Assembly: GCA_020186115.1 (NCBI GenBank)
Contig: WSYJ01000133.1
Location: 62,001 to 126,000, forward strand
Direction: 5' to 3'
Source: Histomonas meleagridis
Lineage: Eukaryota > Parabasalia > Tritrichomonadida > Dientamoebidae
Length of the DNA stretch: 64,000 nucleotides
The notes beneath the pieces were generated by a model. The model was not told where the DNA came from and ran no database searches. It saw only the letters and a list, made by a program, of their open reading frames with translations. Below, piece by piece: positions 1 to 57,547 of the stretch. A program made the position numbers and the translations under genes. Each line of letters opens with the position of its first letter. Within the stretch, counting starts at the first letter, position 1.

Positions 1-2519
1 ATATTAATGTTAATAATAAAGATATTTATTTACATTATTTGTAGTTGATATTAAATATTTGATATATTAATATGAAATTTGGAATTTATATTTATGATTT
101 ATGACTGCTCTTATTTTAGCATCAAGAGAAGGTCATATAGATATAGTTAAATTACTTCTACAACAAAATGAAATTAGTTTTAATGATAAAGAAATTTTTT
201 CTTAATGTATAGAGATCATTCCAAATTTTTAAAATTTAATAATAATATTTGGAAATTGTTCAAAATATTTTATACAGCATTAATTTTTGCATCACAAAAT
301 GATCATACAGAAATAGTCAAATTATTACTCGAATGTAATGGAATAAATATCAATGAAAAAGAAATTTTTTCAACTTTTTAAGAAATCATTTCCATAATTT
401 AATGTCTCAATATTATATTAGGAAATTGTTCAAAATATTTGATACAGCACTTATTAAAGCTTCTCGAAATGGTAATACTGAAATAGCTAAATTGCTTATT
501 GAACAAAAAGGAATTGATATCAATACTAAAAACTTTTGTTTCACTTATTTAATATTTGATTGCATAATTTGATATCTCAAATTCAATTTTGAAGTTATTT
601 TAAGTCGTTTTGTACAGCGCTTATGTGCGCATCTTCATATGGCCATTTAGAAATTGTTAAAATCCTTACAAAGAAAGATGCAAATATTTCAACTAGAGAT
701 ATTAATTTTTATAATTTGAAGTAAATTTTAAAGTATTGAAGTTATTTTATATTTTATGGAATTTCTTTACAATTAATAGAACAGCATTTATGTATGCATG
801 TAAATTTGGACAATATGAAGTTGTCGATTTTTATATTAAGAATAATATAGTTAATGTTAATGATAAAGATATTTATATATTTTTATTAATGTTTATTTTA
901 AAAATTTAATATATTCAAAAAATATTTAAAAATTATTCAAATAATTTTATACAGCCCTTATGATTGCATCTGATGAAGGTCAAACAAATGTTGTTAAAAT
1001 ACTTCTTGATCAAAGAATAATTGATGAAAATACCAAAGATATTAAATAGATTTATTTAATGTTTGTTTTCATTATATTTTGTTTCAAAATAATATTTGGA
1101 AATTATTTTAAATATTTCAAACATCACTAATTTTAGCAGCTAAAAAAGGATATATTGAAATAGTAAAATTACTTCTTGGACAAAAAGCAATCAAAGTTAA
1201 TGAAAAAGATGTTTATTTGTTTTATTTAATATTCATTATAATGATTTAATATTTATAAATAACATTTGGTATTCATTTTAATTACCTCAAAAAGCATTTA
1301 TGGTTGCAGCTGCAAATGGTCATATTGAAATTGTTAAATTACTTCTTGAGAAAAAAGGAATCAAAATCAATGACAAAGATATTTATTTGTTTTGTTTAAT
1401 ATATCTTAAAATGGTTTAATATTTGATAATAAAATTTGGAAATTAATGAAATTATTTGAAACAATCTTTATGAAAGCAGCCAAAAATGGTCATATTGAAC
1501 TTGTTAAATATCTACTTGAACAAAAAGGAATTAATATCAAATCCAAAGATATTAATTTGTTTTATTTAATGTATCTTTTAATGGTTTAATCTTCCATAAT
1601 AATATTTGGACTTTATTTATACGATTTGAAACGGCATTTATAAAAGCAGCTGGAAATGGCTATGTTGAAATTGTTAAATTACTTCTTGAAAAAGGAGCCA
1701 AAATCAATTACAAAACTATTAATTTGTTTTATTTAAAGCTTATTTAAATAATTTGAAGTTTCAAAGAAATATTCGGAAAATATTCAATTTATTTTGGACC
1801 GCACTTATTAGTGCAGCAGAAAGAGGTCGTATATCAGTTGTTAAATTTCTTCTTAATCAAACAGGAGTTGACATTAATGCGAGAAATAATATTTATTTCG
1901 ATAATTTAATATTTCAAAAACATATTTAAAAAATAATCATTTTATTTGATACAGCACTTCAGTTTGCATCAGCAAATGGTCATACTGAAACAGTTAAATT
2001 ACTTCTTGAACAAAGAGGAATTGAAGTCAATACTAAAAACAATATTTATTTACATAATTTTTTGTTTTAATTTTATTTTTGGAATTTATTGATATTATTA
2101 TGGACACCTCTCATTGCAGCATCTGAAAAAGGACACACGGCAGTAGTTAAATTGATTCTTAATCAAAAAGGTACAGCAATCATTGACATCAATGCTAAGA
2201 ATATTTATTTGTTTTATTATGTATTTAATTTGTGATTTTTGTTTTTCAACGTAATATTTGGAATTCATTTAATGTATTTGATACAGCACTTATGAAGGCA
2301 TCTTTACTTGGATATAAAGAAATAGTTAAATTACTTCTTGAACAAAGAAGAATTGATGTCAATGCTAAAGAAATTTATTTATTTTGCTTAAAATTTATTT
2401 CGATTATTTGCAATATCAAAATAATATTTGGAAATTGTTTAAATTATTTAAAACAGCACTAATGAAGGCATCGCAAAATGATTATACAGAAATAGCTAAA
2501 TTACTTCAATAAAAAAAGG
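1..2519 (+). CDS. Ankyrin-repeat array, 3' part, interrupted by 77-nt spacers
   Basis: About sixteen ankyrin units begin with a TAL-like tripeptide (ACA GCA CTT or variants) at 104, 274, 444, 614, 781, 951, 1121, 1291, 1461, 1631, 1798, 1951, 2104, 2283 and 2453. Each unit is about 31 codons and stays open, with the pattern TAL..AS..G..EIVKLLLEQ.GI..N.KDI. Between units lies a non-coding spacer with stops: 13 of 15 are exactly 77 nt and two (before 1951 and 2104) are 57 nt. The last unit ends with TAA at 2517-2519, possibly a natural end. The 5' part, expected to carry a DUF3447 domain as at 13.6 kb, lies outside the window. Ankyrin arrays normally act as protein-binding scaffolds; no specific partner can be inferred. 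It needs removal of the spacers to be translated, otherwise it is a decayed cassette array. Confidence 0.6.
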
Positions 2520-5473: not shown

Positions 5474-8400
5474 TTACTCAGAATTTTGTTCGATACCTTT
5501 CATCTTCTCTTCGAGGTACTCCATCTTCCACCTACACAAGTGCACTCTTGATTCCAATTGCAGCCTCTTCATTAAGTGGTCTCTTGCAGCGGCCAAATTG
5601 ATACCTTTTCCAGAGCTTGCTGAGTTCTTTGACTTTTCCATTGTTTCGCATAATTTTTCGAATCCTCCATTTATTATATTTAATTGTTCTTTCATTTGAG
5701 TAATTTCATTTGTCACGTTTTCGAAATCGATATTTTTCACTGATTCGCCAAATATTTCATTTAATTTCTTTGAGAATTCGATTAATTTGTTCAAAGTTGG
5801 TAAACCATTTTGTATTACATCATTAATTTCCTTAATAAAATCGATAATTTTATTACCCTTTTCCAATAATCCATTCAAGTCCTTCACATCCTTTAAATGA
5901 TCTTTAGTATATAATAATAAATTAATATAAGCAGAAGCTCCAGAAGAACATAAGTTCAACAAAGTAATTGTGAATTCTCTTGTAGCTGATGGAATATTTT
6001 GTTTAATTTCATTAATTCTTTCATTAATGATTGTATATTGTTCTTGTAAAGGTTTAGATACAGCAAATATTTTATCCCTTAATTCACCTAAAGTTGCATC
6101 TTCATTATTAGCAAATGTTATAGCTTCATCACATAATGTTAAAATTAAATCTAAATCTTCAAGTATCGATTGCGTTGAAGAATCAAATTGTATTCTCCAA
6201 TTAGGATTACTATGACATTTAGATTTTAATGATTTATTCATTAAGTCACAATTATTACATAATGAATTTGCAGCTTTAGATAAATTCATTTTGTTTTGTA
6301 AGTTCACTGAACTTAATGAAGTTTTAAGTGTATTAATAAGTGTTAAATCAATTTGTTCATAAATTTTGGTGATCTTTTCTACAATTTCGGAATTCTCTGG
6401 TGACGTTTGAATGAACAATGAAAACTTTTGTATGATTTCTTTGGTTTCATTAATGATATTAATTGTCTCTTTACATATTTCTTGTGTATTTAAGTTAGAT
6501 GAATCATTTGTAAGTCGTGGCATCTTGATTTTAGATGGAAGTTTATTAGCTAATTCTGGTTCATAAGGTAAATATTCAATGTTTGTTGTTTGTTTAATGA
6601 TTGTCGATAATTTAAATAATGTTTCATATATTGGAAATTCTTTGGTAATAATCGAATTAATATCATCATTTGTTATTAATGTAATAAATGAATTAATTTG
6701 TTCTTGAAGTTGATTAGTTAATGTATTAAATTGTTCATTTAATTGTTTCATTGTATTTTGTTGTAATAATTCAATTGATGATGGAATAATTTTATTAATT
6801 TCTTCTTTAAGTAATGGACTCTTTTGTGATAATATTAATAAGAATGATTCCTTAAGTTTAGAATTAGTGAAACCTGCGTTAATTAATGAGATATATAATA
6901 TAATATTTATTAATATTTCTAATAATATTTTTTGTAATTTAATTATTTCATTAGTTTCTTCTTCATTATTAACGAATGACAAATCTTCAACAATATCTCC
7001 AATATTATCAACATATCTTCTAAATAATCTTAAGTTAATATTTGAGAAATCTTTAATATATGTTAATAAAACTTTAATCGATTGATATGATAAACGAATA
7101 AATTCACTATAAAATTGGATATCTGGTTTATTCTTAAGGATAATTCCATGTTCACTCATTATTTGTACATTAGATGTGATTAATAATAATTGTTTTTGAT
7201 CAACAATTTCTGTTAAGTTTTGTGCATATAAATTATTATCTGTACGAATATCTAATAATTCATCAATATTTTGTACATTAATTATTGAATTAGTAATAAT
7301 ATTTGATATGTCTGTAACATATGAAATAATTTTCATTCGTAATTCTTTAATATTATCTTCATTTAATTGTTCAATTTTATCAATTTCATCAATAGTTGGT
7401 AATATATTCTCTAATAATTGATCTTTAACTTTCTTTTCTATAGCTGACGCTTGTAATGACTTAATTTCAATGATTTTATAATGGACTTCTTCTGTTTTAT
7501 ATTCTGATAATAAATGTATTAATTCAATTGATTTCTCATTCGATTTATCTTTAATTTCATTCTCTTTAAGTGACCTAAATTCAATAAATGATGAAATCTT
7601 TTTAAGTTCATCAAATACTTTCTTAAGTGATTCTTCATTATTAGAATTCTCAATAAGTTTTATGATTTTAATTAATGAAATATCTAAAAGTTCTTTAGAA
7701 TCTTTTTGAATTGTAGGTAATATACCCATAAATGTTGATAATATTATCGGTAAATATTTAATGAAACTTTCTTTGTTTGTAACTTTCTTATTATATTTGA
7801 CCATTTTCTTTTCGATTTTAGATAATTCAATTGATGTATAAGTTGGAATTAATTCAACAAAACTCTTTAATGATTGATAATATTCATTATTATAATTAAT
7901 ATGTTCTTTAATATAATTAATGACTTCTTTAGTTTCATCATAATATTGTGTACCTTCCATATAATTTAACACTTGTAAAAATTGTTTATTCGATGTATTA
8001 TTAAATTCTGGAATTTCTTTATAATTTGGTTCTTCATATTTATCAATAATTTTAATGATTTCATCTAATAAATTATTTAAATGTGGTATCCATGCTTGAA
8101 GTTTAATATCTGCTTTATAACTCTTTTCTTCATTACATAAAATAGAGAATTGTTGATCAATATTATATATTAATTGATAAAGAACATTAAACTTATCCAT
8201 AAATTCTTTAATATGATCTTGAATAGAATTAGATAATGATACAACAAATGATAAATATGAAATGATTTTACGTAAGAACATTGGGACTTTCATTGTATCA
8301 GTTTGTAATGTTTCAATTATTTTCTCCATTTCTTTCTTAGATTGTAATAAAAATGATAATGCCATTGATCGATATTGTACTTTCGAAAATTCCATTAATG

Positions 8401-11400
8401 GATTTAACCAAAATTGAGTTATTAGTTTAAATTGTTTCATTCTTTGTGTAGAATCTATTTCTTGAATATAACGTGAAATGAAACATAAATTAATGAAATT
8501 AGCCGTGATAATTAATGAAGGATTTTCAAAGATAATTATCGATTGTTTAATGTTTTCATCATCAGGTTTTTGATGTAAATATTCTTTAATTAATATTTCA
8601 GAATTAGAATAATAATATAATGAAATAGTTAAATCTAATTGAATCATAAATGAATTATATTTTTCGATCAAATTAATTATTTTTTCTTCTTTAATTCCTT
8701 GTAATAATAATGTAGAATAACATTGGATTTCATGTAATGAATCATATTTTAATGTAATTGATGGGAAACTTTTAGAATCAACTATAACATCCACATTAAA
8801 TGAATTTAATGAATTCTTTAGATATTGTAAATAATAATTTGCTTTAATATCTTCTACTTTAAATGAATTAATTTCTGTTCGTAATTCATTAATTATATTA
8901 CATAATGTTATAGAAAAGCCAATGATCATTTTTTGTATTAAATTATTCTTAAGTTCTTTATTAGCTTGTGCTTGAATTAATGTACGTAATTCATCATAAT
9001 AAAATTTACCTTTTTCATGTGCTTTAATAAATGTTATAGAAGCTATTAAATTAGTTGACATTAAATCAGTATTTTGTGATAATAATTCGAATTTATCATC
9101 AATTATATCAATAATATCTTTAGATAAATTATCAAATGATTCAATTCGATCAAATATTTTTTGGATATCTATTGAATGCAAAACATTAGTAAAGAAATGT
9201 GATGAAGAAGATTGACGTATAATATTTGTAGATGTTGAAATATCAGTATATTTACTTAAGTTATCACAATATTCAATTAATATATTTAATAATGTCTTTA
9301 ATGCTGAATCTTCTTTAATGATTGGTATGATTTCAACAATCATTTGATATATTTTATTAACATTTTGTTGTTGTGATTCTCCTCCTTCATTTGTAGATAA
9401 TAAAGAACTTTGTAATAATCTAATTTTTGTAATAATATCAGTATTCTTAATTGTAGTTTGTGATAATATACTGTTAAGTTTATTAAATAATATATCTGTA
9501 GTTTGTTTAAAGATTTCAATATCATTTTCTCCAATATGAGGTTTAAGTATTTTCTCATTTATCATTTCACAATTCGAAAAGAATGTTTCAAGTTGTTTTG
9601 TATATGAATTAATTTCATTTACAAATGGCTTTGTAATTAATGTAAATACTTTAACTTGTTCTTTCTTCCTAAAGACTTCTTTTAATTTAGATAATAATTG
9701 TGATTCATTAGATTTAACTTCTTTAATAACTTTAGACATATTATCGAAATATAATTTCCAATATTTCATATTCATTAATATGTTTTTATGTTTAGAAAAG
9801 ATTTCAATGTTTGCAAAATCATTAAAGAAACGTGATACTTCTTCAAATTGTGGTATAATATCTTCAACCATTAACTTAATTTCTTTTCCTGAGAAAAATG
9901 GTATTATTGTTAATGTAGGTGGTTTAATAGTTTCATATTCAGGTAATTGATTTATACATGAAATGATTAAATCAATTTGATCAATTACATTTTGTATTTT
10001 TGTGAATTTCTCTTCATTCGGTTGAGTTTTATCTTGTGAATCAGAAAGGATTTTTCTCATTTCTTGGAATGTTTCAATTTCTCGATCAATATTTTGAGAT
10101 TCATTAATATAAGTTAAATCTTTTAATAATTTAGAAGAATCATTAGTTAAATTTGAAACATTTTTAATATTTGTAGTTAATTCTTCAAATATTTTATTTA
10201 ATTCTTTAGTCGTAGCGATATGATTAGATAATATTTCTTCAATAATACGATTAATATTATTAAAGTAATAAATATTTGAAGCATCTGATAAAATTGTTGA
10301 TAATTCTCTAATTGGTGACATTATTTCTTTAAGAATTGATAATGTTCGATTAATAGAAACAAAGATTGCACGTGTAGATTGTTTTAATTCTAAGTTAAAT
10401 ATTGTTGTTATAGTCTTTAATTCTAAAATCTTATCTTTAATTTGTTTATAAAGTTCATTAGCTTTAGAATCATTATTTTGTTCTTCATAACTTAAGAACT
10501 TAGTAATAGTTTCATTAAGTGCATCAATTAATGTTTTAATTTGTTTCTTTGTAGGAATTACATGATAAGGATCAATTTTAATTTCGTTTAATAATGTAAT
10601 AAAGATATCAACTTTCTTCTTAGAAAAGATTAAAGCTTGTTGGAATGTTTTATCAGATGTAATTGAAGTTACCATTTCAGTAATACTTTTACAATCAATA
10701 ATAGCTCTTTGTAATACTATAGTTTGTTCTTTAATCTGTTCAAAGTATGGTATCGAATAAGGACGAATTGTAAGTTGTTGACGTATTTTATGAACATTTG
10801 AATATGCATTACCTAATGATATTAATGCACTTTCAATCTTATCAACTAATTCTTGATTATTAATAATCTTTTGATCATTTTTAATAGTATTTCCTACTGT
10901 TAATAAAATTGCTACTGAAAATAATGCTTGATGAAGTATATAAATATGTTTTAATCGTTCATTTGGTTCATGTGGAATTAAAGGTCTTAATACATCTTTG
11001 ATTATAATAGTGAAATGTTCAATTGCTGGTAAAAAGACTGATCCTTGACATAATGGTAATACACTTTCAGCAAATTCAGTTAATGACTTTAATTCTTTTA
11101 ATAAGTTAATTAAATGGAATTGTGTATTATATAAAATTGTACCATTAGTAGGACATTGTTTAAGTTGTTTAAGACTATCTTGAAATGTTTCACGATATTT
11201 CTTTAAGAAGTTAACCCAATTTTCAATGATTATTTTACGTTTACCTTCAACTTTAACCATAATTTCAGATCGTATTAATTTTTGACATTTAATTAATATG
11301 TCAAGATTCGATAATATTATTTCAAGATTTCCGACAGTAATATTAGAAGTTGATATCATTAATAATGAATTAATAATTTCTTCTTTATCATTATCAGGTA

Positions 11401-12787
11401 ATTTACCTTTTTTAATAATTTCATTTGTATTATATATTAATTGTAATAATGAATCTTGTTCAAACATATTCTTCATACATTTAAGTAATACTTCTTGAAT
11501 TTGATTAACTTCATTAGGGAATTCATTAGCATAATTAGGTAATAATGGGACAACTTTAGTTTGATAAGGTTCTAATGTACCCGGATAATATAAATATTTC
11601 CCAGCGCCACTTAATGTATAATAATATGTGAAATTCGATATATCAATTTCTTCTGCATTATTTAATGATTCTTCTTTCATAAATCCATCAGTAATTAATT
11701 CTGATCCAAGTTCTTTAACAAATGTCGCATACGCTGAAATTATTGCATAAATTGTTGTGTAATTCTTATGATGGATTTTAAGTTTTTGTTCTTGGCCATC
11801 AGGTAATAAGAACTTAATGGTAACTGTCCCTTTAGATTTATGGACTGATACATATCGGAAATATGGTATTGAGTATAAAAGTTCTTTTGATTCACCATCA
11901 AGTAAATCAATTTTACTTGGACCAACAAATAACTCGGATGGTACATAATTCTTATCTTCGCCAATGGCATATTTACATTTGAAACTTTCGCTGCCAAAAT
12001 TCGGTATCGATAATGAGATGGTGATGTATTGGCCAATCGATTCTTCTTTGGTAGGTGGCTTTCGTTCCTTAAGAAAATCAATGACTAAAGCTTTGACTTC
12101 TTCAGAAGTGTCCGCTGGAATCGATTCTTCTGTAACTTGGGAAATATCTGCGGATGTGATATATAATGAATAATAACAAAGTTCGGCTTTCTTTTCATCT
12201 GATATTGTAAGACTACTCTTCTTAAGATACTCGGATACATCATTATAAGCTAACATTGATGAAGATGGATCCATTAATTGTGATTTGGTGAAAACAAAAT
12301 AACGTCTCTTAAATACAACTTTGTCATAATTGGTACACTGTTGAGGTAAGGATAGTTCTAAGTTAAGTGGGACATGTTCACCATCAGATGATATGGTAAA
12401 TAATGAGTAACCAATTGCATTACCGATTCTAAACTTTTCTGCAATGAAAGAAACAAGCTCCTTAACGGTCTTTGAAATATCAATCATAAGTTTCTTGGTA
12501 GTTCCATCAGATGTTAGAACAGATATGGCTAAACTTGTCCTTAAAACAAATATTGTCATCCCATCCTGTGGATGGTAATGAGAAATTTCCTTGTCTGGAT
12601 TTACCCACTTGAATTCCTTGTCTTTCTTACGGATAAGTAAACGAAGATTTTTAGCTTCAGGAATTTGCAAATTTTTAAGTGCAAGAGAAAGAAGTTGAGA
12701 GCCCTTGATGTCGCCCGGGTATTCAAACTCTTTTGCGTTTTTTCCATGTATGTTATCGCAGGTAAGAAGGCGGATTGTTGCGGACAT
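5474..12787 (-). CDS. Talin-like FERM-domain protein with long helical rod
   Basis: A protein of about 2437 aa. The frame extends to 12802 only through a GTG; the first ATG (MSATIRLLTC) is at 12787. The N-terminal ~370 residues look like a linear talin-type FERM: an F0-like ubiquitin fold (1-85), F1 (86-165, ending FKRRYFVF), F2 helical lobe (170-255) and a PTB-like F3 (about 300-370, YSIPYFRYVSVHKSKGTV). The remaining 2000 residues are almost wholly alpha-helical bundles without other domains, as in a talin rod. The last ~45 residues form a charged helix (HLMKRLQLESRVHLCRWKM) as at talin C-termini. Talins link membrane receptors to actin; that fits the amoeboid adhesion of trichomonads. Rod repeats are not alignable by eye to animal R1-R13, so the name is by architecture. 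A long FERM-coiled-coil protein of another kind is the alternative. Confidence 0.65.
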   Translation of the reverse strand: MSATIRLLTCDNIHGKNAKEFEYPGDIKGSQLLSLALKNLQIPEAKNLRLLIRKKDKEFKWVNPDKEISHYHPQDGMTIFVLRTSLAISVLTSDGTTKKLMIDISKTVKELVSFIAEKFRIGNAIGYSLFTISSDGEHVPLNLELSLPQQCTNYDKVVFKRRYFVFTKSQLMDPSSSMLAYNDVSEYLKKSSLTISDEKKAELCYYSLYITSADISQVTEESIPADTSEEVKALVIDFLKERKPPTKEESIGQYITISLSIPNFGSESFKCKYAIGEDKNYVPSELFVGPSKIDLLDGESKELLYSIPYFRYVSVHKSKGTVTIKFLLPDGQEQKLKIHHKNYTTIYAIISAYATFVKELGSELITDGFMKEESLNNAEEIDISNFTYYYTLSGAGKYLYYPGTLEPYQTKVVPLLPNYANEFPNEVNQIQEVLLKCMKNMFEQDSLLQLIYNTNEIIKKGKLPDNDKEEIINSLLMISTSNITVGNLEIILSNLDILIKCQKLIRSEIMVKVEGKRKIIIENWVNFLKKYRETFQDSLKQLKQCPTNGTILYNTQFHLINLLKELKSLTEFAESVLPLCQGSVFLPAIEHFTIIIKDVLRPLIPHEPNERLKHIYILHQALFSVAILLTVGNTIKNDQKIINNQELVDKIESALISLGNAYSNVHKIRQQLTIRPYSIPYFEQIKEQTIVLQRAIIDCKSITEMVTSITSDKTFQQALIFSKKKVDIFITLLNEIKIDPYHVIPTKKQIKTLIDALNETITKFLSYEEQNNDSKANELYKQIKDKILELKTITTIFNLELKQSTRAIFVSINRTLSILKEIMSPIRELSTILSDASNIYYFNNINRIIEEILSNHIATTKELNKIFEELTTNIKNVSNLTNDSSKLLKDLTYINESQNIDREIETFQEMRKILSDSQDKTQPNEEKFTKIQNVIDQIDLIISCINQLPEYETIKPPTLTIIPFFSGKEIKLMVEDIIPQFEEVSRFFNDFANIEIFSKHKNILMNMKYWKLYFDNMSKVIKEVKSNESQLLSKLKEVFRKKEQVKVFTLITKPFVNEINSYTKQLETFFSNCEMINEKILKPHIGENDIEIFKQTTDILFNKLNSILSQTTIKNTDIITKIRLLQSSLLSTNEGGESQQQNVNKIYQMIVEIIPIIKEDSALKTLLNILIEYCDNLSKYTDISTSTNIIRQSSSSHFFTNVLHSIDIQKIFDRIESFDNLSKDIIDIIDDKFELLSQNTDLMSTNLIASITFIKAHEKGKFYYDELRTLIQAQANKELKNNLIQKMIIGFSITLCNIINELRTEINSFKVEDIKANYYLQYLKNSLNSFNVDVIVDSKSFPSITLKYDSLHEIQCYSTLLLQGIKEEKIINLIEKYNSFMIQLDLTISLYYYSNSEILIKEYLHQKPDDENIKQSIIIFENPSLIITANFINLCFISRYIQEIDSTQRMKQFKLITQFWLNPLMEFSKVQYRSMALSFLLQSKKEMEKIIETLQTDTMKVPMFLRKIISYLSFVVSLSNSIQDHIKEFMDKFNVLYQLIYNIDQQFSILCNEEKSYKADIKLQAWIPHLNNLLDEIIKIIDKYEEPNYKEIPEFNNTSNKQFLQVLNYMEGTQYYDETKEVINYIKEHINYNNEYYQSLKSFVELIPTYTSIELSKIEKKMVKYNKKVTNKESFIKYLPIILSTFMGILPTIQKDSKELLDISLIKIIKLIENSNNEESLKKVFDELKKISSFIEFRSLKENEIKDKSNEKSIELIHLLSEYKTEEVHYKIIEIKSLQASAIEKKVKDQLLENILPTIDEIDKIEQLNEDNIKELRMKIISYVTDISNIITNSIINVQNIDELLDIRTDNNLYAQNLTEIVDQKQLLLITSNVQIMSEHGIILKNKPDIQFYSEFIRLSYQSIKVLLTYIKDFSNINLRLFRRYVDNIGDIVEDLSFVNNEEETNEIIKLQKILLEILINIILYISLINAGFTNSKLKESFLLILSQKSPLLKEEINKIIPSSIELLQQNTMKQLNEQFNTLTNQLQEQINSFITLITNDDINSIITKEFPIYETLFKLSTIIKQTTNIEYLPYEPELANKLPSKIKMPRLTNDSSNLNTQEICKETINIINETKEIIQKFSLFIQTSPENSEIVEKITKIYEQIDLTLINTLKTSLSSVNLQNKMNLSKAANSLCNNCDLMNKSLKSKCHSNPNWRIQFDSSTQSILEDLDLILTLCDEAITFANNEDATLGELRDKIFAVSKPLQEQYTIINERINEIKQNIPSATREFTITLLNLCSSGASAYINLLLYTKDHLKDVKDLNGLLEKGNKIIDFIKEINDVIQNGLPTLNKLIEFSKKLNEIFGESVKNIDFENVTNEITQMKEQLNIINGGFEKLCETMEKSKNSASSGKGINLAAARDHLMKRLQLESRVHLCRWKMEYLEEKMKGIEQNSE

Positions 12788-13592
12788 ATTTTTTTGAAAC
12801 ACTGATTAAACTTTTTCAATTGCTGTTTTGAAAACTGCCATTGAAAAGTGCCAAAAGAGAAGAGTTGGAGAAAAGATAGATATAAAAAAACATTTCAATT
12901 AATTAGTTAAATATGTTTGTAATCGAAATTTATGTAAAAAAACAAAATTAAATTTATATAGTATTCATGAAAGTTCATTATATGAATTAAATTCTTGAAG
13001 CCTCGCCGTTAAAAAAAATATCGTGAAGTGAACAAAACAAAGAAACAATAAAATTCTAATTGAAAAATTGAAACAATTTTTTTGATAGTGGAAATATAAA
13101 TATTTCATTAAATTAGTTTATAAATTATAATTTTTTGATAATATATAAATAATAATACATTTGTATTATATATTTAATTTTATATTATGATATATTAATT
13201 TCTTTCATTAAAAATTTAGTTTAATTTGATTTGACATTAAAAATTTGACAACGGTTTGTATCATCGTTTTGTCTGTTTTTTGTATCAGCGTGGTAAATTT
13301 TTTTTTTAATAATGAAAAATTTATTTTTAACCTAAAGAAATTTATTGACGTCTTTTCTGCTTCATTTTTAGTTGTCATCTTAATTAAGTTTAATTATTTT
13401 ATTATTGATTAATCAAAAGGAACATAAATCCAAAACATGAAAAAAATCTTTAATAAAAATTCACTTATTTCCTAGTATTTTCATATTATCATTTTTGATA
13501 TTTATTTCCATTGTGTTAATCCCCAATTGAATCTCCGAGCATTCGTAAGTAAATATCTCAAAAATCTATCGTTTAGCTAAAGCACAAACGTT
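12788..13592. other. Intergenic region upstream of talin-like and ankyrin genes
   Basis: About 800 bp of very AT-rich DNA lies between the divergent talin-like (-) and DUF3447 (+) genes. It presumably carries both promoters. I see no convincing initiator for either and no coding frame or RNA fold. Confidence 0.4.
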
Positions 13593-15436
13593 TTGCATGA
13601 CTTGCAAGTGAAAGATAAAAAATATATAACATATCTCATATTATTAGAAAGTATTGTTTTTGAATTAAATGACGAAAATATTGAGGCTTTAGTTGAAAAA
13701 TTATTAAATGTTTTTGATGCAGATAATTCATATTCTTTTTTTATTATAATATTCCATTTGTCATTTTCAGCATTTACTTCTAAAAAGATAAATACAAATG
13801 TAATTTTTACATTTTTAAATATGATTTTTACAAAGAAAGAAGAAATTGTAAAAAGCAAATTTCCTATTAAAAATATTCTTTCTCTGTTAAACATTGCATA
13901 TAATCCTCAAGAATCATATTATTTTCTTCAATGGTTGATAGATCAAAAATTTATTGAGCCTGGTTCCATTCAAAATATAGAAACTTTATATTTCTCTCAT
14001 TATAAATCACAACAAAAAGTTTTATTTTCATATAAAGCTCTTCCATCATTTAGTAAGTTCAAAGAAAATTTCGAAGAGCTTAGTAAGAATGATTGTGAAC
14101 TTCATAAGAAATTAATTCGTGAAGGAGTTAACCCAAATGAAATTGCAAAAATAATTAGAAATGATGATATCGAAAAATTACAAGAAATAGTATCAAGCCC
14201 AAATTTTGATTTTAATCAAGTAATTGAACCATCTCTTTATGAAAAATTTACATTTATTAATCAAAATAATGTTAAACTTATTGAATATGCAGCATTTTTT
14301 GGATCTATTAAATGTTTTAAATTATTAAAACTAAGTGGTTCTAATTTAGAAAATATTGGGAAGTATGCAATTGCTGGTGGTAACCTTGAAATAATTCATA
14401 TTTGTGAGCAAAGTAATATATCTTTTTTTGATTCATTTGAAATTGCGGTTGAATTTCACCAAAAAGAAATTTTTTATTATCTTTATGAAAATAAAATTGC
14501 TGAAATTAAAGATATAAATGAATTGGGAAAGAAATGTATTAAATATAACAACTTTGAAATTTTCTCATTTTTAGAAGATAAAGGAATGAAAGTAAATGAT
14601 ACCCTTTTTATGGAAGCAGCTTCAAATGGAAATTTATATCTAATTAAGCATTTTCAAAAAGAAAAACATTTCCCGAATGATATTTTATATTATGCGATAA
14701 TTTCAAAAAATTTCGAACTTGTTAAATTTATAGCTGAGCAAAATAAAAGTTATATTAGTGCCAAAAATATTTATTATTTTGTAATAAAGTTTATTTTGTT
14801 AAATATATGTTTCAAATTAATAATTGGAATTTGTTTTAATAATTTGAAACTCCAATAATTTTTGCAACGTCATGTGGTTCTGTTGAAATCGTAAAATTTC
14901 TTCTTGATGGAAAAATTTCAAATATTAATGCTAAAGCTATTTGTTCAATTTATAAAGAGTTTATTTCAATTGTTTGGTAATTCATCGTTTTTAATGGTGT
15001 ACATAAAAATTATTTAAAACTGCATTGATTATTGCAGCCGAAAAAGGTAACACTGAAATTGTTGAGTTACTTCTTAATCAAAAAAGTATAAATGTAAATG
15101 CAAAAGATGTCTTTTTTTCATATTCAATGTATATTTGAATAAAAAGCGATTTCCATATCATATTCAAAATTAAAATATATTATTTAAAACAGCACTTATG
15201 TATGCTACTACAAATGGTAATGTTGAAATTGTTAAATTACTTGTCAAACAAAAAGATATCAATATTAATGCAAAAGATATTTGTTTAATTAATTTAATGG
15301 TTATTTCATTTAATTAGTAAATTATAATATCATTTGGAATTAATTTAAAAAATTTTTTACAGCCTTAAATTATACATCAAATGAAGAAATTAAAGCATTA
15401 ATTTCACATTATTCAAAGGACAAAAATAAAAGTTGA
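13593..15436 (+). CDS. DUF3447/ankyrin-repeat protein with four 77-nt spacers
   Basis: The N-terminal ~390 residues (13593-14771) are the trichomonad DUF3447 type, with ELHKKLIREGVNPNEIAKII, LIEYAAFFGSIKCFK and YAIAGGNLEIIHICEQ. They are followed by three full ankyrin units at 14849-14941, 15019-15111 and 15189-15281 and a last exon at 15359-15436 ending in a natural KNKS-TGA tail. The four spacers (14772-14848, 14942-15018, 15112-15188, 15282-15358) are each exactly 77 nt and contain stops or shift the frame. All units are open. No in-frame ATG exists: the frame begins after TAA at 13578 and the nearest ATG (13597) is out of frame, so the start is unresolved (lost ATG, TTG, or an upstream exon). 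Such proteins are probably scaffolds; no function is assigned. Confidence 0.6.
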
Positions 15437-25199: not shown

Positions 25200-27101
25200 A
25201 TGTCAGGCAAAGTCTCTCTATCAAGATCCTATAATCCGATTAAGCAACAGCTTAACACCCGCAAGAATGGAAGCGTAGTCGACTCATCTGTCCTCACAAC
25301 GAAGAAAGAAACAGATCCTAAACTTCAAAAGGCACCACTTCCTATTTCTCACGAATTTGATCTCCTTTGCGCTCAACATCGTAGTGAAGAGAATGTCGAT
25401 CGTTCAGATTGGCTTCAAAGGGTTCTTGATAAGCATCAAAACATTCGTGAGCTTCGAGAATGTGTTAACCCTGTTGTCCGTGCAGCAACATTTGCACGTC
25501 TTTATCTTCCATCAACACGTTTAATCTCACATGAAATGCTTCTTGCCCTTATTTCTCAACATTTCCGAACATTAGGTCTATCTGAAGCACAAGCTTCACT
25601 TCACTCAGAATGGGGATCAGATTTCAACATACCACCACATAAGCTTTATTCACAATTAGCACTTCTTATTCAACGTGGAGTTCATCGAGCCGAAAGATTT
25701 TGGGAACTTTCAATGCCATCAGTTCATGCATGTGCCACTGAGAAACTTACCCAACAAGCACTTGATGAAGAAATCTCCAGGACGATTGGAGCTGCTCCTA
25801 ACATCAATGAAGATGATCAATCCTTATTAAATGAGACACCTGGCGATCCCAACTTCATTAAATATGATGAGAATGGCGAACCAGTTGAAGCCAGTCTTAA
25901 CCAAATCATCTATTATGTCACCACGAATCTTGTCAAGAAAGATGAAGGTTCATCAGAGACCAGCAAATACAACAACACATCCATGTCTGAGCTCACCAGT
26001 GCGTTATGCTTAACCATTTCCTCCTATGCCTCAGCCAAAGTCTTTTTCAAGAAGATCCGCGATCGATTTGAAATGTTATTAGCAGATGACACACAAAAGA
26101 CGAATCAATTGTTATGTGTTAAGCTATTTAAAGAATGGATCCATGGTGCGATTAATGATATTGAGCCACAAGTCTTAGATGCGGCAATGCAATTTACAGA
26201 AGAACATTTAATGTCACGTTTCCCATCATATTGCCGAAACATCTTTGAAGGACGTTCAGATAACACCACACAGCGCCAAAAAGACTTTGAAAGCAAAGCG
26301 AAGCCCGTTGAGTTAGGTAATTGCACAGGCATTTGGACTGGTGATTTTACATTATTTGATTTACCAGTTAAAGAATTAGCGCGACAACTTACAGTGTGGA
26401 GCTCAAACAAATACTATGCGATCAAGCGATGCGAACTTTTAGATTGCGCATGGGATAAACCACGTCTTAAGTATCGAGCGCCTAATGTCATTGCGTTAAC
26501 TGAACATTATAATCGTTTCTCACGTTGGATCGAATATTCGATATTATCAGAGAAGAAGTTACAAGATCGAATATATCGTATGGAATGGTTCATCTCATTA
26601 GCGCAAGAGTTATTTGACTTGAATAACTTTTATGATGCGATGTGTGTTCTTTCAAGTTTCGAAGCAAATTCTATTTATCGATTAAGAGAACATCGAAAGT
26701 TATTATCACCACAATCACAAGAAAGATTACAAGACTTACAAACAAAGATGGATATCAATGGTAACTTCGTATCGCTAAGAAACCTTTATAACAAATGTTT
26801 GACATCTTCTACACCCGCATTACCTTACATCGGAGTATTGTTGTCCGACTTGTTTAAGTATTACGAAGGTACACAGGAATACGTCAATAAGCTAATTAAC
26901 ATTAGGAAGTTTAAGGGAGTGTACAAAATGATAGCAAAGATAGAAGAGTTCATGAGAGATAAGTATTGCATATACGCAATCGATCAGGTCCAGGCAGAGA
27001 TAGATAAGTTCGAGGAGCAGGACGAGGACGTATTGTACGAAATGTCAAACGACGTCGAAAAGGAAGGCGCCAAAGGAAAAGAAGACCTTAAGGATGAATA
27101 A
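25200..27101 (+). CDS. Ras guanine-nucleotide exchange factor with LisH and RasGEF_N
   Basis: 633 aa. Order of domains: a basic Ser/Thr-rich N-terminus, a LisH-like helix pair at about 108-138 (LISHEMLLALISQHFRTLGL), a RasGEF_N/REM module at about 227-345 (LNQIIYYVTTNLVKK ... LLCVKLFKEWIHGAI), then the CDC25 catalytic domain at about 378-590. The latter shows FTLFDLPVKELARQLT, the FNRFSRWIEYSIL-type helix, NNFYDAMCVLSSFEANSIYR and PYIGVLLSDLFKYYEG. RasGEFs load GTP onto Ras-family proteins at membranes. An acidic lysine-rich tail follows. The stop is TAAAA, overlapping a TAAA poly(A) signal. LisH-RasGEF fusions are common in amoebozoans and trichomonads. Confidence 0.88.
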   Translation: MSGKVSLSRSYNPIKQQLNTRKNGSVVDSSVLTTKKETDPKLQKAPLPISHEFDLLCAQHRSEENVDRSDWLQRVLDKHQNIRELRECVNPVVRAATFARLYLPSTRLISHEMLLALISQHFRTLGLSEAQASLHSEWGSDFNIPPHKLYSQLALLIQRGVHRAERFWELSMPSVHACATEKLTQQALDEEISRTIGAAPNINEDDQSLLNETPGDPNFIKYDENGEPVEASLNQIIYYVTTNLVKKDEGSSETSKYNNTSMSELTSALCLTISSYASAKVFFKKIRDRFEMLLADDTQKTNQLLCVKLFKEWIHGAINDIEPQVLDAAMQFTEEHLMSRFPSYCRNIFEGRSDNTTQRQKDFESKAKPVELGNCTGIWTGDFTLFDLPVKELARQLTVWSSNKYYAIKRCELLDCAWDKPRLKYRAPNVIALTEHYNRFSRWIEYSILSEKKLQDRIYRMEWFISLAQELFDLNNFYDAMCVLSSFEANSIYRLREHRKLLSPQSQERLQDLQTKMDINGNFVSLRNLYNKCLTSSTPALPYIGVLLSDLFKYYEGTQEYVNKLINIRKFKGVYKMIAKIEEFMRDKYCIYAIDQVQAEIDKFEEQDEDVLYEMSNDVEKEGAKGKEDLKDE

Positions 27102-33423: not shown

Positions 33424-34088
<665 letters not shown>

Positions 34089-50596: not shown

Positions 50597-51194
50597 TGAT
50601 ATTTTATTACCGTTCAAAAAGTCAGTTTAAAAAGTGGCACTTGTCAATTAGCCGCTTATGGTAGTATAAAACATTGAAATTGACTTTTGCTAAAATCCAA
50701 ACCAGTGAAACACATTCAAACAAAGTTTCAGAATTTGAATTTAATACCGGTCTCTTTTAACGTTCTCGTTTTTTTTCATCTTTGTTATAAACATTTTGAT
50801 CTTACTCAAAGAATTAGGTAGTGTTTAATATAAACATTAAGATTATATGAAATTTTCCTAAATTCAGAATTACTTATGAAATATCTAGTTGATAATTATC
50901 ATTCTTCATTAATAATAGTTTTATTTTATCTTTTGTGTTAATGTGGTTTTTGATACAAAATCATTTTATATTTCTTATCGTTGTTTTTGCTAAGATATTA
51001 AATTTCAATTGATAAATCTATTTAGAAAACTTATTTAAGAAAAAATTCATATAAATATTGTACTTTAACTTTATTAATTTTCTAAAAAAAAAATTATTTT
51101 CAACAATTTGATAAAATTTACACGGTGAAAACTATATGATAAATAATAATTATTTCTTGTAGAAAGAAAAAAAATATTTGAAATTTATTTACTT
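50597..51194. other. Intergenic upstream of RasGAP
   Basis: Very AT-rich. Promoter of the RasGAP gene is expected here. No coding or RNA signal is seen. Confidence 0.35.
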
Positions 51195-52456
51195 TTAATG
51201 AATTAAACATTTGTTTTTATTTTTTGATGCTTTTTCTTCTAACATTTTTTCCTCAATTATTTTTACGATTTCATTGTTTTCATTTTCAGTAGCATACATA
51301 ATTGCTGTTTTAAATAATACATTATAATTTTCAATTTGAAACATTAATTTACTTATATAAATATCACTTACTCTTATATCTTCCTGTTCAAGAAGTAATT
51401 TAGCAATTTCAGTATTGTTTCGTGCACAAGCCCACATTAATGCTGTCCAAAATAATTTAGTTTAATTCCAATTTTTAATTTGAAACATAAAATTTAATAA
51501 AAATATTGAGAAAAATATAATTTAATATCAATCTTGTTTTGTTCAAGAAGTAATTTAACAATTTCAAAATCACCTTTTTATCCTCAAATCATAAACGCTG
51601 TCCAAAATAATTGCTTTTTCATATGCACTTTTAAATGATGAATGATTTTGTTCACATAAATGAATGATTTCTTCATTTCCACCTGCAACTGCATATTTAC
51701 CTGTATTTTCTACATTTACATTATTCATAATCAAATATTTGAAACATTTAATTGAACCAAAAAATGCTGCATAATCAATTAATGAAACATTTTCTTTGTT
51801 AATGAATGAACGTCTTTCATATAATGATGGTTCAATTGTTTGATTAAAATCAAAGTTATTTTGTGAAGATATTTCTTGAAGTTTTTCGATTTCATCATTT
51901 CGAATTATTTTTGCAATTTCATTTGGATTAACTCATTCTTTAATTAATTTCTTATGAAGTTCCCAATCATTCTTTGAAAGTTCTTCATAATTTTTTATAA
52001 AAAAAATTCTTTTGGGTCGTATAGTTTAAATCTCATATTTTGAATTTTCTTTAAATGAGAAAAATGTATTGAATCATTTCTAATATAGCTTATATCAATG
52101 AAATTTAGTTCAATAAATTTTTGTATTAAATAGTTTGTTTCATTGACTTTATAATCTAGATAACTCAAAAGTTTAATGCCGAAAGTTTGAGAAACATTAA
52201 TTTCATTTTGACCTTTATCTAATTCAGAAAGTAAACGAAAAAACAACACATCATCTGTATAATGTATTGTATAAAATATCAAAGCAATATGTAACACAGT
52301 ATAATAATAAGAAAATAAATGCTTGTTGGGAGACATTTCTATGATAGATTTAACAAATAGTTCAATATTTTCTTCATTCATATCAAAAATTAGTTTTTCC
52401 AGGGATACTAGAAAATCTATTATTTGTTTGCTATGTAATTTTTGAGATGGAGGCAT
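51195..52456 (-). pseudogene. DUF3447/ankyrin gene, decayed
   Basis: The start is intact (MPPSQKLHSKQIIDFLVSLE, 153-codon frame), but the frame shifts in a T/A run near 51998. It then has a TGA in place of GGA in the KE(G)VNPNEIAKII segment, and stops (TGA, TAA) inside the first ankyrin unit near 51580. A five-codon loss lies in that unit. Downstream are one 77-nt spacer and one 51-nt spacer, the latter in frame, followed by a last unit and a Lys-rich end (KASKNKNKCLIH). The 51617-52000 part is almost identical to the + strand locus at 53391-53754. Confidence 0.8.
51617..52000 (-). repeat. Arm of ~99% inverted repeat (partner 53391-53754)
   Basis: Reverse-complementing this arm gives the DUF3447 core of the + strand locus with only about two substitutions in the parts compared (G/A in TTTATAAARAATT and T/G in the premature stop) plus a 22-nt difference near one end. 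The flanks on both sides are unalike at this level. Confidence 0.8.
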
Positions 52457-53754: not shown

Positions 53755-55866
53755 AGCAATTGAATTCCATCGAAATGATATCTTTAAATATTTTTATGAT
53801 AATAAAATTGTTGAAATTAATGACATCGAAGAATTAGGAAGATTATGCCTTCTATATGATAATTATGAAATTTTATCGTTTTTGCAAGAAACTGGTATGA
53901 AGATCAATGAATTTATGATTATTAATTCAATTAAAACAAGTAATTTGTTTACTACACAATATTTTCTTGAAAAAAATCCAATATCAATAAACTTTTTGAA
54001 GCTCACAACTATCTCTGGGAATGAAGAACTTTTAAACTTTCTTATTAATAACAAATATATTAATTGTAGACAAGAAATTGTTTATTTATTTTTTTCGAAA
54101 TCCTTTTGAAATTATTAATAATTCAATAAAACGTTTAAAATATATTTATAATTTTCGAAAAAGAACTATTAAATGCATCTGAAGCTGGTTATATTGTAAT
54201 TGCCAAATTACTTCTTTTACAAAAAGAAATTGATGTTAATGCTAAAAATATTTTTTTGTTTTATTCGAGGTGTGTTTTAATGATTTGATATTTCAAAACA
54301 ATATTAGGAAATTATATAAATTATTTAATACTGCGCTTATTTTGGCATCAGAAAGAGGAAATATAGAAATTGTTAAATTACTTCTTGAACAAAAAGGAAT
54401 TGATATAAATACTCAAAATATTTAATTGTTTTATTTAAAATCTATTTTAATTTTTTTAATGATTTAATATAATATTTGGAAATTATTTATAATATTTGAA
54501 ACATCATTAATGAAAGCATCAGGAAATGGGCATATAGAAATCGTTCAATTGCTTCTTGAACAAAAAGGAATTGATATTAATTCTAAAACTATTTCTTTCC
54601 TTTATATAATATTTCATTTATTAAATTTATATTTCAAAATAATATTTGGAAACCAAATAAAATATTTAGAACAGCACTCATTTGTGCATCTGAAAGAGGT
54701 AACGTGGAAATTGTTAAATTACTTTTTGAAAAAGAAGGGATAGATATTAATGCTAAAACTATTTATTTGTTTTATTTAAAATTTAAATTAATATTTTAAA
54801 ATTTCCCAAAAATACTTGGAAATTATACAAATAACTTGAAACATCACTTATGTTTGCATCTCGAAAGGGATATATTAATATTGTAAAAATGCTTCTTGAA
54901 CAAAAAGGAATAGAAATTAATGCTAAAAATAATTGTTTGTTTTATTTAATATTTGCTTTTATAATTTGATATTTCAAAAATATTTTTGAAATTTATTCGA
55001 AATATTTGAAACAGCACTTATGAGGGCATCTCTTTATAGTAATCCAACAATGGTCAAATTACTTCTTGAAAAAGAAGGAATTGATATTAATATTCAAAAC
55101 ATTGATTTGTTTTATTTAAAATTTATTTTAATAATTTAAAACATCAAAACAATATTTGGAAATTATTTATGATATTTTATACAGCACTTATTTTGGCATC
55201 AGAAAGAGGAAATATAGAAATCGTTCAATTGCTTCTTGAACAAAAAGGAATTGATATTAATTCTAAAACTATTTCTTTCCTTTATATAATATTTCATTTA
55301 TTAAATTTATATTTCAAAATAATATTTGGAAATTATATTAAATATTTAGAACAGCACTCATTTATGCTACTTGTAATGGTCATTTAGAAATTGTTAAATT
55401 AATTCTTGAACAAGAGGTGGTAGATTTCAATTCTAAAGATATATATTTCTTTAATATGAATTATATTTGATAAATTTAGTGTTTAAATATAATGTTTGGA
55501 AATTATTTAAAATATTCGATACAGCTCTTATGTTTGCATCTTCAAAAGATGACACAGAAATAGTTAAATTACTTCTTGAACAAGAAGGAATTGATATAAA
55601 TGAGAAAAATATTTATTTGTTTTAGTTAATATTTACATTAATAATTTAATATTTCAAAATAATATTTGGAATATTTTTTATTTATTTGAAACAGCTTTGA
55701 TTTTGGCTTCTAAAAATGGACAAACAAAAACAGTTAAATTACTTCTTAAGCACAAAGGAATCGATATTAATGCAAAAGATATTTATTTATTTTATTTTTA
55801 TTTTATATAGGCAATTTGATGTTTTATTATTTTATTTGGAAATCATTAGAAATATTTTATACATCA

Positions 55867-56523: not shown

Positions 56524-57027
56524 AAAAATATTTATTTTAATAATTTTGGAATATTTCAAAATAATATTTAGAAATTGTTTAAATTATTTGAAACAGCACT
56601 TATTTTAGCTTCTGAAAAAGGTTATACAGAAATAGTTAAATTACTTCTTGAACAAGAAGGAAATGATATTAATGCTAAAAATATTTATTTGTTTTATTTG
56701 AAATTTATTTTAATAATTTTGGATTTCAATATAATTTTTGAAAATTATTTAAATTGTTTAAAACAGCACTTAATATTGCATCTTCAAAAGGTTATACAGA
56801 AATAGTTAAAATAATTCTTGAACAAGAAGGAATTGATATTAATGCTAAAAATATTTATTTTAATAATTTTGGAATATTTCAAAATAATATTTAGAAATTG
56901 TTTAAATTATTTGAAACAGCACTTATTTTAGCTTCTGAAAAAGGTTATACAGAAATAGTTAAATTACTTCTTGAACAAGAAGGAAATGATATTAATGCTA
57001 AAAATATTTATTTGTTTTATTTGAAAT
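56524..57027 (+). repeat. 323-bp tandem duplication within the array
   Basis: About 185 nt are essentially identical in the pair of copies offset by 323 nt (units starting 56593 and 56916, including their unusual 60-nt upstream spacer). It marks a recent two-unit duplication of one 170-nt and one 153-nt period. Confidence 0.7.
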
Positions 57028-57547
57028 TAATATTAATAATTTGATATTATAAAGTAATATTCGGAAACTATTTAAATAATTTTATACAGCACTAATATTA
57101 GCGTCAGAAAAAGGTTATACAGAAATAGTTCAATTACTTCTTGAACAAGAAGGAATTGATATTAACGCTAAAAATATTTATTTGTTTTATTTAATATTTA
57201 TTGTAATAATTTAATATTTTAAAATTATATTTGGTAATTATTTAAAACATTTCAAACAGCTCTTGCTATCGCAACTAGAAATGATAACAAAGATATAATC
57301 AATTTGTTTAATGAACATGAAACTAATGAGTAAAAATGTCCATTATTGGAATTTTATGTGTTTATTGTTATGAGTGTTACATGATTTGAATTACCATAAA
57401 ATAGTGAACTTCTTTTTGTTGTAGATAATAGAATTATAATTAACGAAAAGAAGATTATGGCAAATGAAGTGTATTTTTCGAAATCATTTGTTGTGAAGAT
57501 TAACGGTCTCTTGTATGCGTTGCTATCGTTCGATTGGCACTTTTTAA

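Follow-up and report, generated by a model that had tools for sequence, protein, structure and literature searches.

How a gene could be read through a chain of ankyrin repeats that is interrupted again and again by DNA containing stop codons is the question raised by the first 2,519 nucleotides (nt) of the window analysed here, a 64,000-nt stretch of the genome of the poultry parasite Histomonas meleagridis (contig WSYJ01000133.1, positions 62,001 to 126,000; C70:62001-126000). Fifteen spacers lie there between ankyrin units, 13 of 77 nt and two of 57 nt (1894-1950 and 2047-2103). The answer that we consider probable, judging from the make-up of the DNA, is that these are split genes whose spacers would be intervening sequences that are taken out in the course of expression, most likely from RNA, without the use of GT-AG ends. 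A previous, sequence-only reading of the window had singled out the length of 77 nt; its count of 13 in 15 for this array agrees with ours, as does its repeat period of 170 nt, and its four of four for a second gene at 13.6-15.4 kb is borne out by the sequences. For a third array at 54-57 kb it gave 13 of about 16, where 12 of 15 are counted between detected units (the others being 80, 78 and 60 nt, and the spacer before 56593, which has lost the unit upstream of it, being omitted), and the 77-nt spacer that it saw in a pseudogene near 51 kb is 62 nt by the profile model in the minus-strand pair at 51.4-51.6 kb.

The lengths fall on a lattice. Pattern searches covered the whole assembly (43,276,120 bases in 121 contigs), and detailed measurements a non-randomly chosen sample of 33 regions (222 kb), which contains the whole window and otherwise mostly arrays; the regions were chosen by way of 30 loci with a spacer-motif match, 20 found through two ankyrin N-terminal proteins and eight around such matches or upstream of the window. 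A unit profile run on them returned 297 units, which are not independent counts since the units within an array are kin, and 258 gaps of less than 400 nt between neighbours, each spacer being measured from the last, KDI-like codon of one unit to the TAL codon of the next. With the boundary shifted by one codon wherever a unit is one residue longer or shorter than usual, lengths of 17+20n nt are found for 224 of 257 spacers (the single gap above 300 nt is omitted, and a 233-nt gap holding an undetected unit is scored as a miss). The raw gaps comprise 193 of 77 nt, 14 of 60, 11 of 78, eight of 80 and six of 97, together with one to three each of 17, 37, 57, 74, 117, 137, 157, 177 and 277 nt and some off-lattice lengths; once the gaps of 77 and 78 nt are set aside, 17 of the remaining 54 lie on the lattice as they stand, the extremes of which are 17 and 277 nt. 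In other words, the conserved quantity is not 77 nt, as had been supposed, but a 20-nt module. Spacer lengths take every residue modulo 3, and stops occur inside spacers.

Across the genome, the exact anchors of GCTAAARATATT-N{62,92}-ACAGCNCTT match 1,623 times and the reversed pattern never; the first 100 matches listed have gaps of 77 nt in 90 cases, 78 in four, 80 in four, and 63 and 68 in one each. Anchor gaps of 85-115 nt give 156 matches (three in the reversed control), and among those listed the 22 with modules visible by eye all measure exactly 97 nt, as does one more without modules, many of the other listed ones being artefacts of a second KDI-like match further upstream. Gaps of 3-33 nt between the exact anchors yield one match, against the 1,623 at 62-92 nt; this junction, C86:303269-303293, has a 4-nt gap, a near-complete loss of the spacer in which the frame is not kept. 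From the anchor and motif counts a rough total of about 8,300-9,000 spacers is obtained, the scaling being based on C1:850500-856500 and the regions outside C1, where 31 anchor matches and 38 motif matches accompany 171 spacers of 57-82 nt; one of these regions, on C5, had been selected for motif matches.

The lattice arises because each spacer is a chain of diverged 20-nt modules with a consensus of about TTTATTTTAATAATTTGAAA; counted from two letters before to one letter after the spacer, a lattice spacer is exactly 20m nt long. Set against dinucleotide shuffles, autocorrelation at lag 20 reaches z = 34 in 178 distinct 77-nt spacers and z = 23 in 12 long ones, with lags 19 and 21 below z = 8 (lags 9 and 13 are also raised in the 77-nt set, z = 13 and 17). 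Distinct modules of the long spacers match the consensus at 11-19 of 20 places, 65 of 73 doing so at 13-17, and the 20-nt register is unbroken through a spacer of 14 modules. Chains of modules make up 260 runs beside ankyrin units on the coding strand, one antisense run in arrays and one run elsewhere, in a sample that is mostly arrays. Moreover, the 77-nt spacers are on average 69% identical in pairs (41% when shuffled) and have a clear common consensus, so that the length is not, as the sequence-only reading had it, kept without conservation of sequence; what survives of the functional constraint that it proposed is that the spacers behave as untranslated inserts which would need to be removed.

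A FastTree tree of 193 77-nt spacers implies about 5,400 substitutions. Gap openings per mismatch between spacer pairs are 0.002 at 95-99% identity, 0.006 at 90-95% and 0.016 at 85-90%, and they increase to 0.028 at 80-85% and 0.046 at 70-80% (alignments of less than 85 columns being left out), and the noncoding reference for these values is two alignments with six gap openings per 28 mismatches, which is too small to set a factor. The 33 closest spacer pairs, which are recent duplicates, stand at p 0.007 in the spacers and 0.045-0.069 per site in the neighbouring units; units changing faster than spacers suggests diversifying selection or a shuffling of whole repeats. Arrays with long spacers lie at C120:1700000-1707121 (5 to 14 modules), C55:259991-264184 (up to 6) and C96:130060-134208 (1 to 8), and the modules on C55, almost uniform and of the form ATATGTTTTAATAATTTGAA, make up a second subfamily.

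The units, for their part, look translated. In-frame stops occur in four of the 271 units of 93 nt, the other two frames being closed in 253 and 271 of them, and among all 297 units the figure is eight. About 139.5 stop-creating changes would be expected in the 271, when half of the differences to the nearest unit are taken with the mutation spectrum of the spacers, which supports the previous observation that the units stay open. The constraint holds at all array positions, since units that are fifth or later in their array show three stops where 65.5 are expected. Codons with a single difference are synonymous in 639 cases and not in 1,353, a synonymous fraction of 0.32 where random changes, stop-creating ones included, give 0.12, and entropy over the three codon positions is 0.90/0.53/0.91 in units, the spacer value being 0.88. 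A separate start codon for each unit was considered and rejected, methionine standing at unit codon 4 in just 105 of 271.

This depletion of stops switches on and off at the spacer edges, as scanned in spacers of 37-299 nt, the range used for the join test as well. Immediately before TAL, codon -1 is a stop in 0 of 234 cases (20.5-35.0 expected from base composition) and codon -3 in 36 of 234 (30.0-34.5 expected), codon -2 being uninformative; after KDI, stops number 7 of 236 at codon +1 (10.7-16.0 expected) and 18 of 236 at +2 (15.0-24.0 expected). Furthermore, many arrays have a terminal exon: in 19 of the 34 that are uncut by a region edge, one more spacer is followed by a truncated repeat ending in a stop, which comes after 18 to about 54 residues, mostly fewer than 32 (for example TALMLASEKGYTEIVKILNEKGAN and then the stop).

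A split gene of this kind would begin with an N-terminal exon, of the DUF3447 type in the loci fetched through such proteins and an open reading frame (ORF) with a Lipase_3 domain for the array at 1-2519. Mini-exons would follow, each amounting to a single ankyrin repeat, whose length is most likely 33 residues (the unit plus F-x), and often the last exon would be a truncated terminal repeat carrying the stop codon. The exon ends are predicted just after the KDI-like codon and just before the F-x-TAL codons, with GAYATT joined to TTTNNNACAGC, such that an m-module spacer would lose 20m-9 nt, or 71 nt at m = 4. The lipase ORF itself lies just upstream of the window at C70:60352-61701; it has 449 codons with a class-3 lipase domain and ends in GININENI plus a few spacer codons. 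Since this array stands behind a lipase ORF and not DUF3447, the same spacer system is found behind a different N-terminal domain.

Relatives of the N-terminal exons bear on the age of the arrangement. Protein searches of the genome with the DUF3447-ankyrin N-terminal part give at least 101 and at least 115 matches, several genes appearing twice. Ten relatives occur on contigs of 1.4-2.4 kb, seven ending exactly at the KDI-like codon, one a codon earlier and one eleven residues past it, while the last has two joined repeats and stops some residues past the second. Identity to the best genome locus is 60% for P0006 and 64% for P0002, both among the ten, so that their source would be a different organism or else a gene that has diverged, the interruption being older than that split. 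The more distant relatives P0026 and P0027 have several ankyrin repeats without interruption. When units joined by X were used as the query, the 120 listed of 1,718 matches were ankyrin proteins of many sources; the spacer motif has no match in IMG/VR.

Several observations count against removal of the spacers, or against its precise form. Frame-restoring GT..AG pairs occur in 48 of 193 spacers, against 68 of 193 shuffled once, and none is present in the consensus; a branch-like YTRAC is found in 21 of 193; and no RNA fold was detected, the mean z being +0.12 over 87 spacers and the alifold consensus empty. The ten relatives all stop at the first or second junction, where the spacer would be retained if their contigs are transcripts; a thioredoxin-domain protein search, made to tell whether these contigs are RNA, returned nothing at 1e-40. 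Fifteen of the 34 arrays show no further terminal unit: in some the last detected unit carries a stop, and others break off inside a spacer or without an end exon. The closest unit pairs, moreover, have a dN/dS of 1.06-1.16 by the Nei-Gojobori method, which ignores the strong AT bias, more distant pairs having 0.60-0.74. Among the arrays that end abruptly, the one at C1:850500-856500 has 12 very similar units, lacks a terminal exon and stops partway through a spacer, which may reflect a recent rearrangement.

Several joins are compatible with the scan for stop codons. Joining 0 nt after KDI to 6 nt before TAL takes out 71 nt of 77 and gives 33-residue repeats, the usual length of an ankyrin repeat, with 0 stops in 240; on this count the sequence-only proposal of units of about 33 codons with some 71 nt missing is allowed, the weakness being that several 31- and 32-residue joins are equally stop-free. 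Random re-pairing of spacer halves yields 0 stops for the 33-residue join as well, and the test thus limits how deep reading can go into the spacer without fixing the exact letters. Two of 258 sampled junctions are short and in frame, at 9 or 18 nt (C63 and C120), and the contiguous one on C63, with 9 nt and 34 residues, disagrees with the 33-residue join. It was this single junction that suggested a repeat of 34 residues and the loss of 68 nt; that join is disfavoured, since 7 or more stops in 240 are left by each of the 34-residue joins tried. If all modules (80 nt) were taken out, the repeats would have 30 residues, which was rejected on the usual length of ankyrin repeats. Finally, the published annotation of the virulent strain, although trained on a transcriptome, has few introns, 573 in total and at most one per gene (PMC8529796).

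Ordinary spliceosomal introns, with GT-AG ends and parabasalid motifs, would be the most conventional occupants of the spacers, and the machinery for them appears to be at hand. The U2 small nuclear RNA has two copies with GUAGUA intact, and U6 one copy with ACAGAG (43.7 bits, 0.3 under the 44-bit Rfam cut-off), U1 giving no Rfam match. The gene at C40:8934-9700, which on inspection we take to be a Rab-like GTPase, contains two canonical introns, one of 24 nt and one of 23 nt (GTATGTTTTTTCTCTAACCTTCAG and GTATGTTTTAATTATAACTCCAG), and reads as a complete GTPase once they are removed; its two introns compare with a published maximum of one per gene. PRPF8 is, in addition, listed among the proteins measured in H. 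meleagridis (PMC10063853). Against this stand the shortfall of GT..AG pairs and branch motifs described above and the absence of any genome match to the Trichomonas vaginalis pattern GTATGT-N8-38-ACTAACACACAG, which make such introns very unlikely; the pattern GTATGT-N3-33-TAACNNNCAG has 12 genome matches against 17 in its control. A scan for canonical introns joining ORFs with 60 open codons on each side found none in the sampled regions, a scan that the Rab introns also escaped, owing to a short exon. Decayed 20-nt introns were considered as a source of the modules and rejected, the C88 candidate GTATGTTGACTAACAAACAG giving no joined ORF. Bypassing by the ribosome, as in Magnusiomyces mitochondria, would leave the spacers in the mRNA with no need of splice sites, and the relatives' ORFs that end at the junction would fit it; it is nonetheless unlikely, because spacers of 17 to 277 nt in 20-nt steps, without a fold, would have to be skipped, with more than 12 hops in a gene like that of the 1-2519 array, and the known phage and mitochondrial cases are far shorter. 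That the spacers are themselves translated, through frameshifts or as in-frame linkers (57 is a multiple of 3), might be argued from the downstream frame, in which 80 of 178 distinct 77-nt spacers contain no stop (8% in shuffles), but the other 98 are closed in that frame, all six spacers of at least 117 nt are closed in every frame, and the depletion of stops ends at the spacer edge; we regard it as highly improbable.

Other explanations dispense with expression of the arrays as they stand. Decaying arrays, in which only the N-terminal ORF is used while tandem duplication has left behind the units and their spacers, the latter containing a 20-nt minisatellite, would accord with the dN/dS of the nearest unit pairs, with abrupt array ends such as that on C1 and with the few introns of the published gene models. 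Stops are depleted at all array positions, however, with four found where some 140 are expected, and close spacer pairs show few small indels (0.002-0.016 per mismatch at 85-99% identity, the reference being the two noncoding alignments), so that decay seems improbable. A store of silent cassettes, the downstream units serving as donors from which gene conversion supplies a contiguous copy that is expressed, is suggested by recent pairs whose spacers are more alike than their units, as if they were platforms for crossing over. It is rendered quite unlikely by the scarcity of contiguous copies, one against 1,623 split for those exact anchors and only two in-frame junctions among those sampled, and by the terminal stop exons, for which a store would have no use. 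Excision from the DNA itself at some cell stage would, as a matter of inference, suit a precise removal that needs no splice sites, but in the assembly, made from cultured cells, the split form is almost the only one as judged by the exact anchors. We know of no nuclear dimorphism in H. meleagridis, and hold this last explanation to be extremely unlikely.

Returning to split genes with removable spacers, it may tentatively be proposed, at somewhat less than even confidence, that the spacers form a class of introns measured by a ruler, with no GT-AG, branch motif or fold, in which the 20m-9 nt removed would be set by a machinery that reads 20-nt modules, and which, confined to one gene superfamily, would number some 8-9 thousand alongside spliceosomal introns of 23-24 nt. 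Were the spacers indeed removed, a genome called almost intron-free (573) would hold thousands of intervening sequences missed by gene finders based on GT-AG, and the annotation of its ankyrin superfamily would be incomplete. Moreover, a non-canonical class with a 20-nt rule, beside a U2/U6 spliceosome with its core sequences intact, would make intron definition beyond the letters of the splice site testable.

Ankyrin arrays and their parts in the window (positions are those of the window)
Feature	Position	Strand	Remarks
End of ankyrin unit	1..26	+	whole unit -66..26; array starts upstream of window behind Lipase_3-domain ORF
Spacer, 77 nt	27..103	+	
Ankyrin unit, TALILASREGHIDIVKLLLQQNEISFNDKEI	104..196	+	
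Spacer, 77 nt	197..273	+	
Spacer, 77 nt	367..443	+	
Spacer, 77 nt	537..613	+	
Spacer, 77 nt	704..780	+	follows 30-codon unit ending RDI; profile gave 74 through one added codon
Spacer, 77 nt	874..950	+	
Spacer, 77 nt	1044..1120	+	
Spacer, 77 nt	1214..1290	+	
Spacer, 77 nt	1384..1460	+	
Spacer, 77 nt	1554..1630	+	
Spacer, 77 nt	1721..1797	+	
Spacer, 57 nt, one 20-nt module fewer	1894..1950	+	preceding unit has extra codon at its end, NNI
Spacer, 57 nt, one module fewer	2047..2103	+	
Spacer, 77 nt	2206..2282	+	
Final spacer, 77 nt	2376..2452	+	
Truncated terminal unit, TALMKASQNDYTEIAKLLQ, and stop codon	2453..2512	+	
N-terminal exon of second gene, DUF3447 and ankyrin, ending ...SAKNI	13593..14771	+	ORF continues to 14858 within first spacer
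Second array	14772..15436	+	three units; spacers 14772-14848, 14942-15018, 15112-15188 and 15282-15358, all 77 nt
Terminal unit of second array, weak, ending KDKNKS and stop	within 14772..15436	+	below terminal-unit score threshold
Two units, one with stops	51354..51601	-	spacer 62 nt by profile
Third array, part one	54080..55860	+	10 units; spacers 80, 77, 78, then eight of 77 nt
Third array, part two	56593..57333	+	4 units; spacers 77, 60, 77, 77 nt; terminal unit TALAIATRNDNKDIINLFNEHETNE and stop

Elsewhere in the window, very long intact ORFs of 2,442 and 2,225 codons occupy 5474-12802 and 43940-50617, both on the minus strand, one of the two having an RA-like and the other a RasGAP domain; a RasGEF gene lies at 25200-27101. 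A TAT trinucleotide repeat of 138.7 copies (99% match) extends over 33672-34087, where a minus-strand ORF of 152 codons overlaps it.

In the open-access PMC literature no description of a spacer system of this kind was found, and we know of no class of introns whose length follows a 20-nt rule. Minisatellites are tandem repeat units of variable copy number, and the spacers resemble them in having a tandem 20-nt unit of fixed period (lag-20 z of 34 and 23) and variable number; unlike them, the modules have diverged while staying 20 nt long, and those sampled lie on the coding strand beside ankyrin units. In euglenid nonconventional introns, secondary structure brings the ends together. No structure joining the ends, of this type or of the hairpin introner type, was seen in the 87 spacers folded (mean z +0.12). 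What the spacers share with non-canonical introns of the Amoebophrya and Fritillaria kind, the nearest described cases, is that an untranslated insert lies between coding exons and that its removal would restore the frame. The text of the genome paper on H. meleagridis nowhere mentions ankyrin (PMC8529796).

The dinoflagellate Amoebophrya, with its non-canonical introns and introner elements, likewise has many inserts without GT-AG ends in the presence of a spliceosome (PMC7789003). There, inverted repeats form hairpins in about 11% and 30% of cases in two strains, and removal is demonstrated by RNA-seq (PMC7789003); the Histomonas spacers, in contrast, are known from DNA alone and have no fold, a 20-nt lattice and a single type of site, between ankyrin repeats. 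Trichomonas vaginalis is a parabasalid host too and has short introns, down to 23 nt, but its active introns number 63 (PMC12316389), where an estimated 8-9 thousand spacers of 17-277 nt, lacking motifs, are found in Histomonas. The byps of Magnusiomyces capitatus are similar in that untranslated blocks of nucleotides interrupt the frames of many genes; they differ in being mitochondrial, in numbering 81 and in being skipped by the ribosome, not removed (PMC5009743), and the Histomonas spacers reach 277 nt. Lastly, the tunicate Fritillaria offers a case in which the core spliceosome is conserved while introns escape the GT/AG rule, 95% of them being affected (PMC13326754); in Histomonas, at least one ordinary gene, the Rab-like one, keeps canonical short introns.

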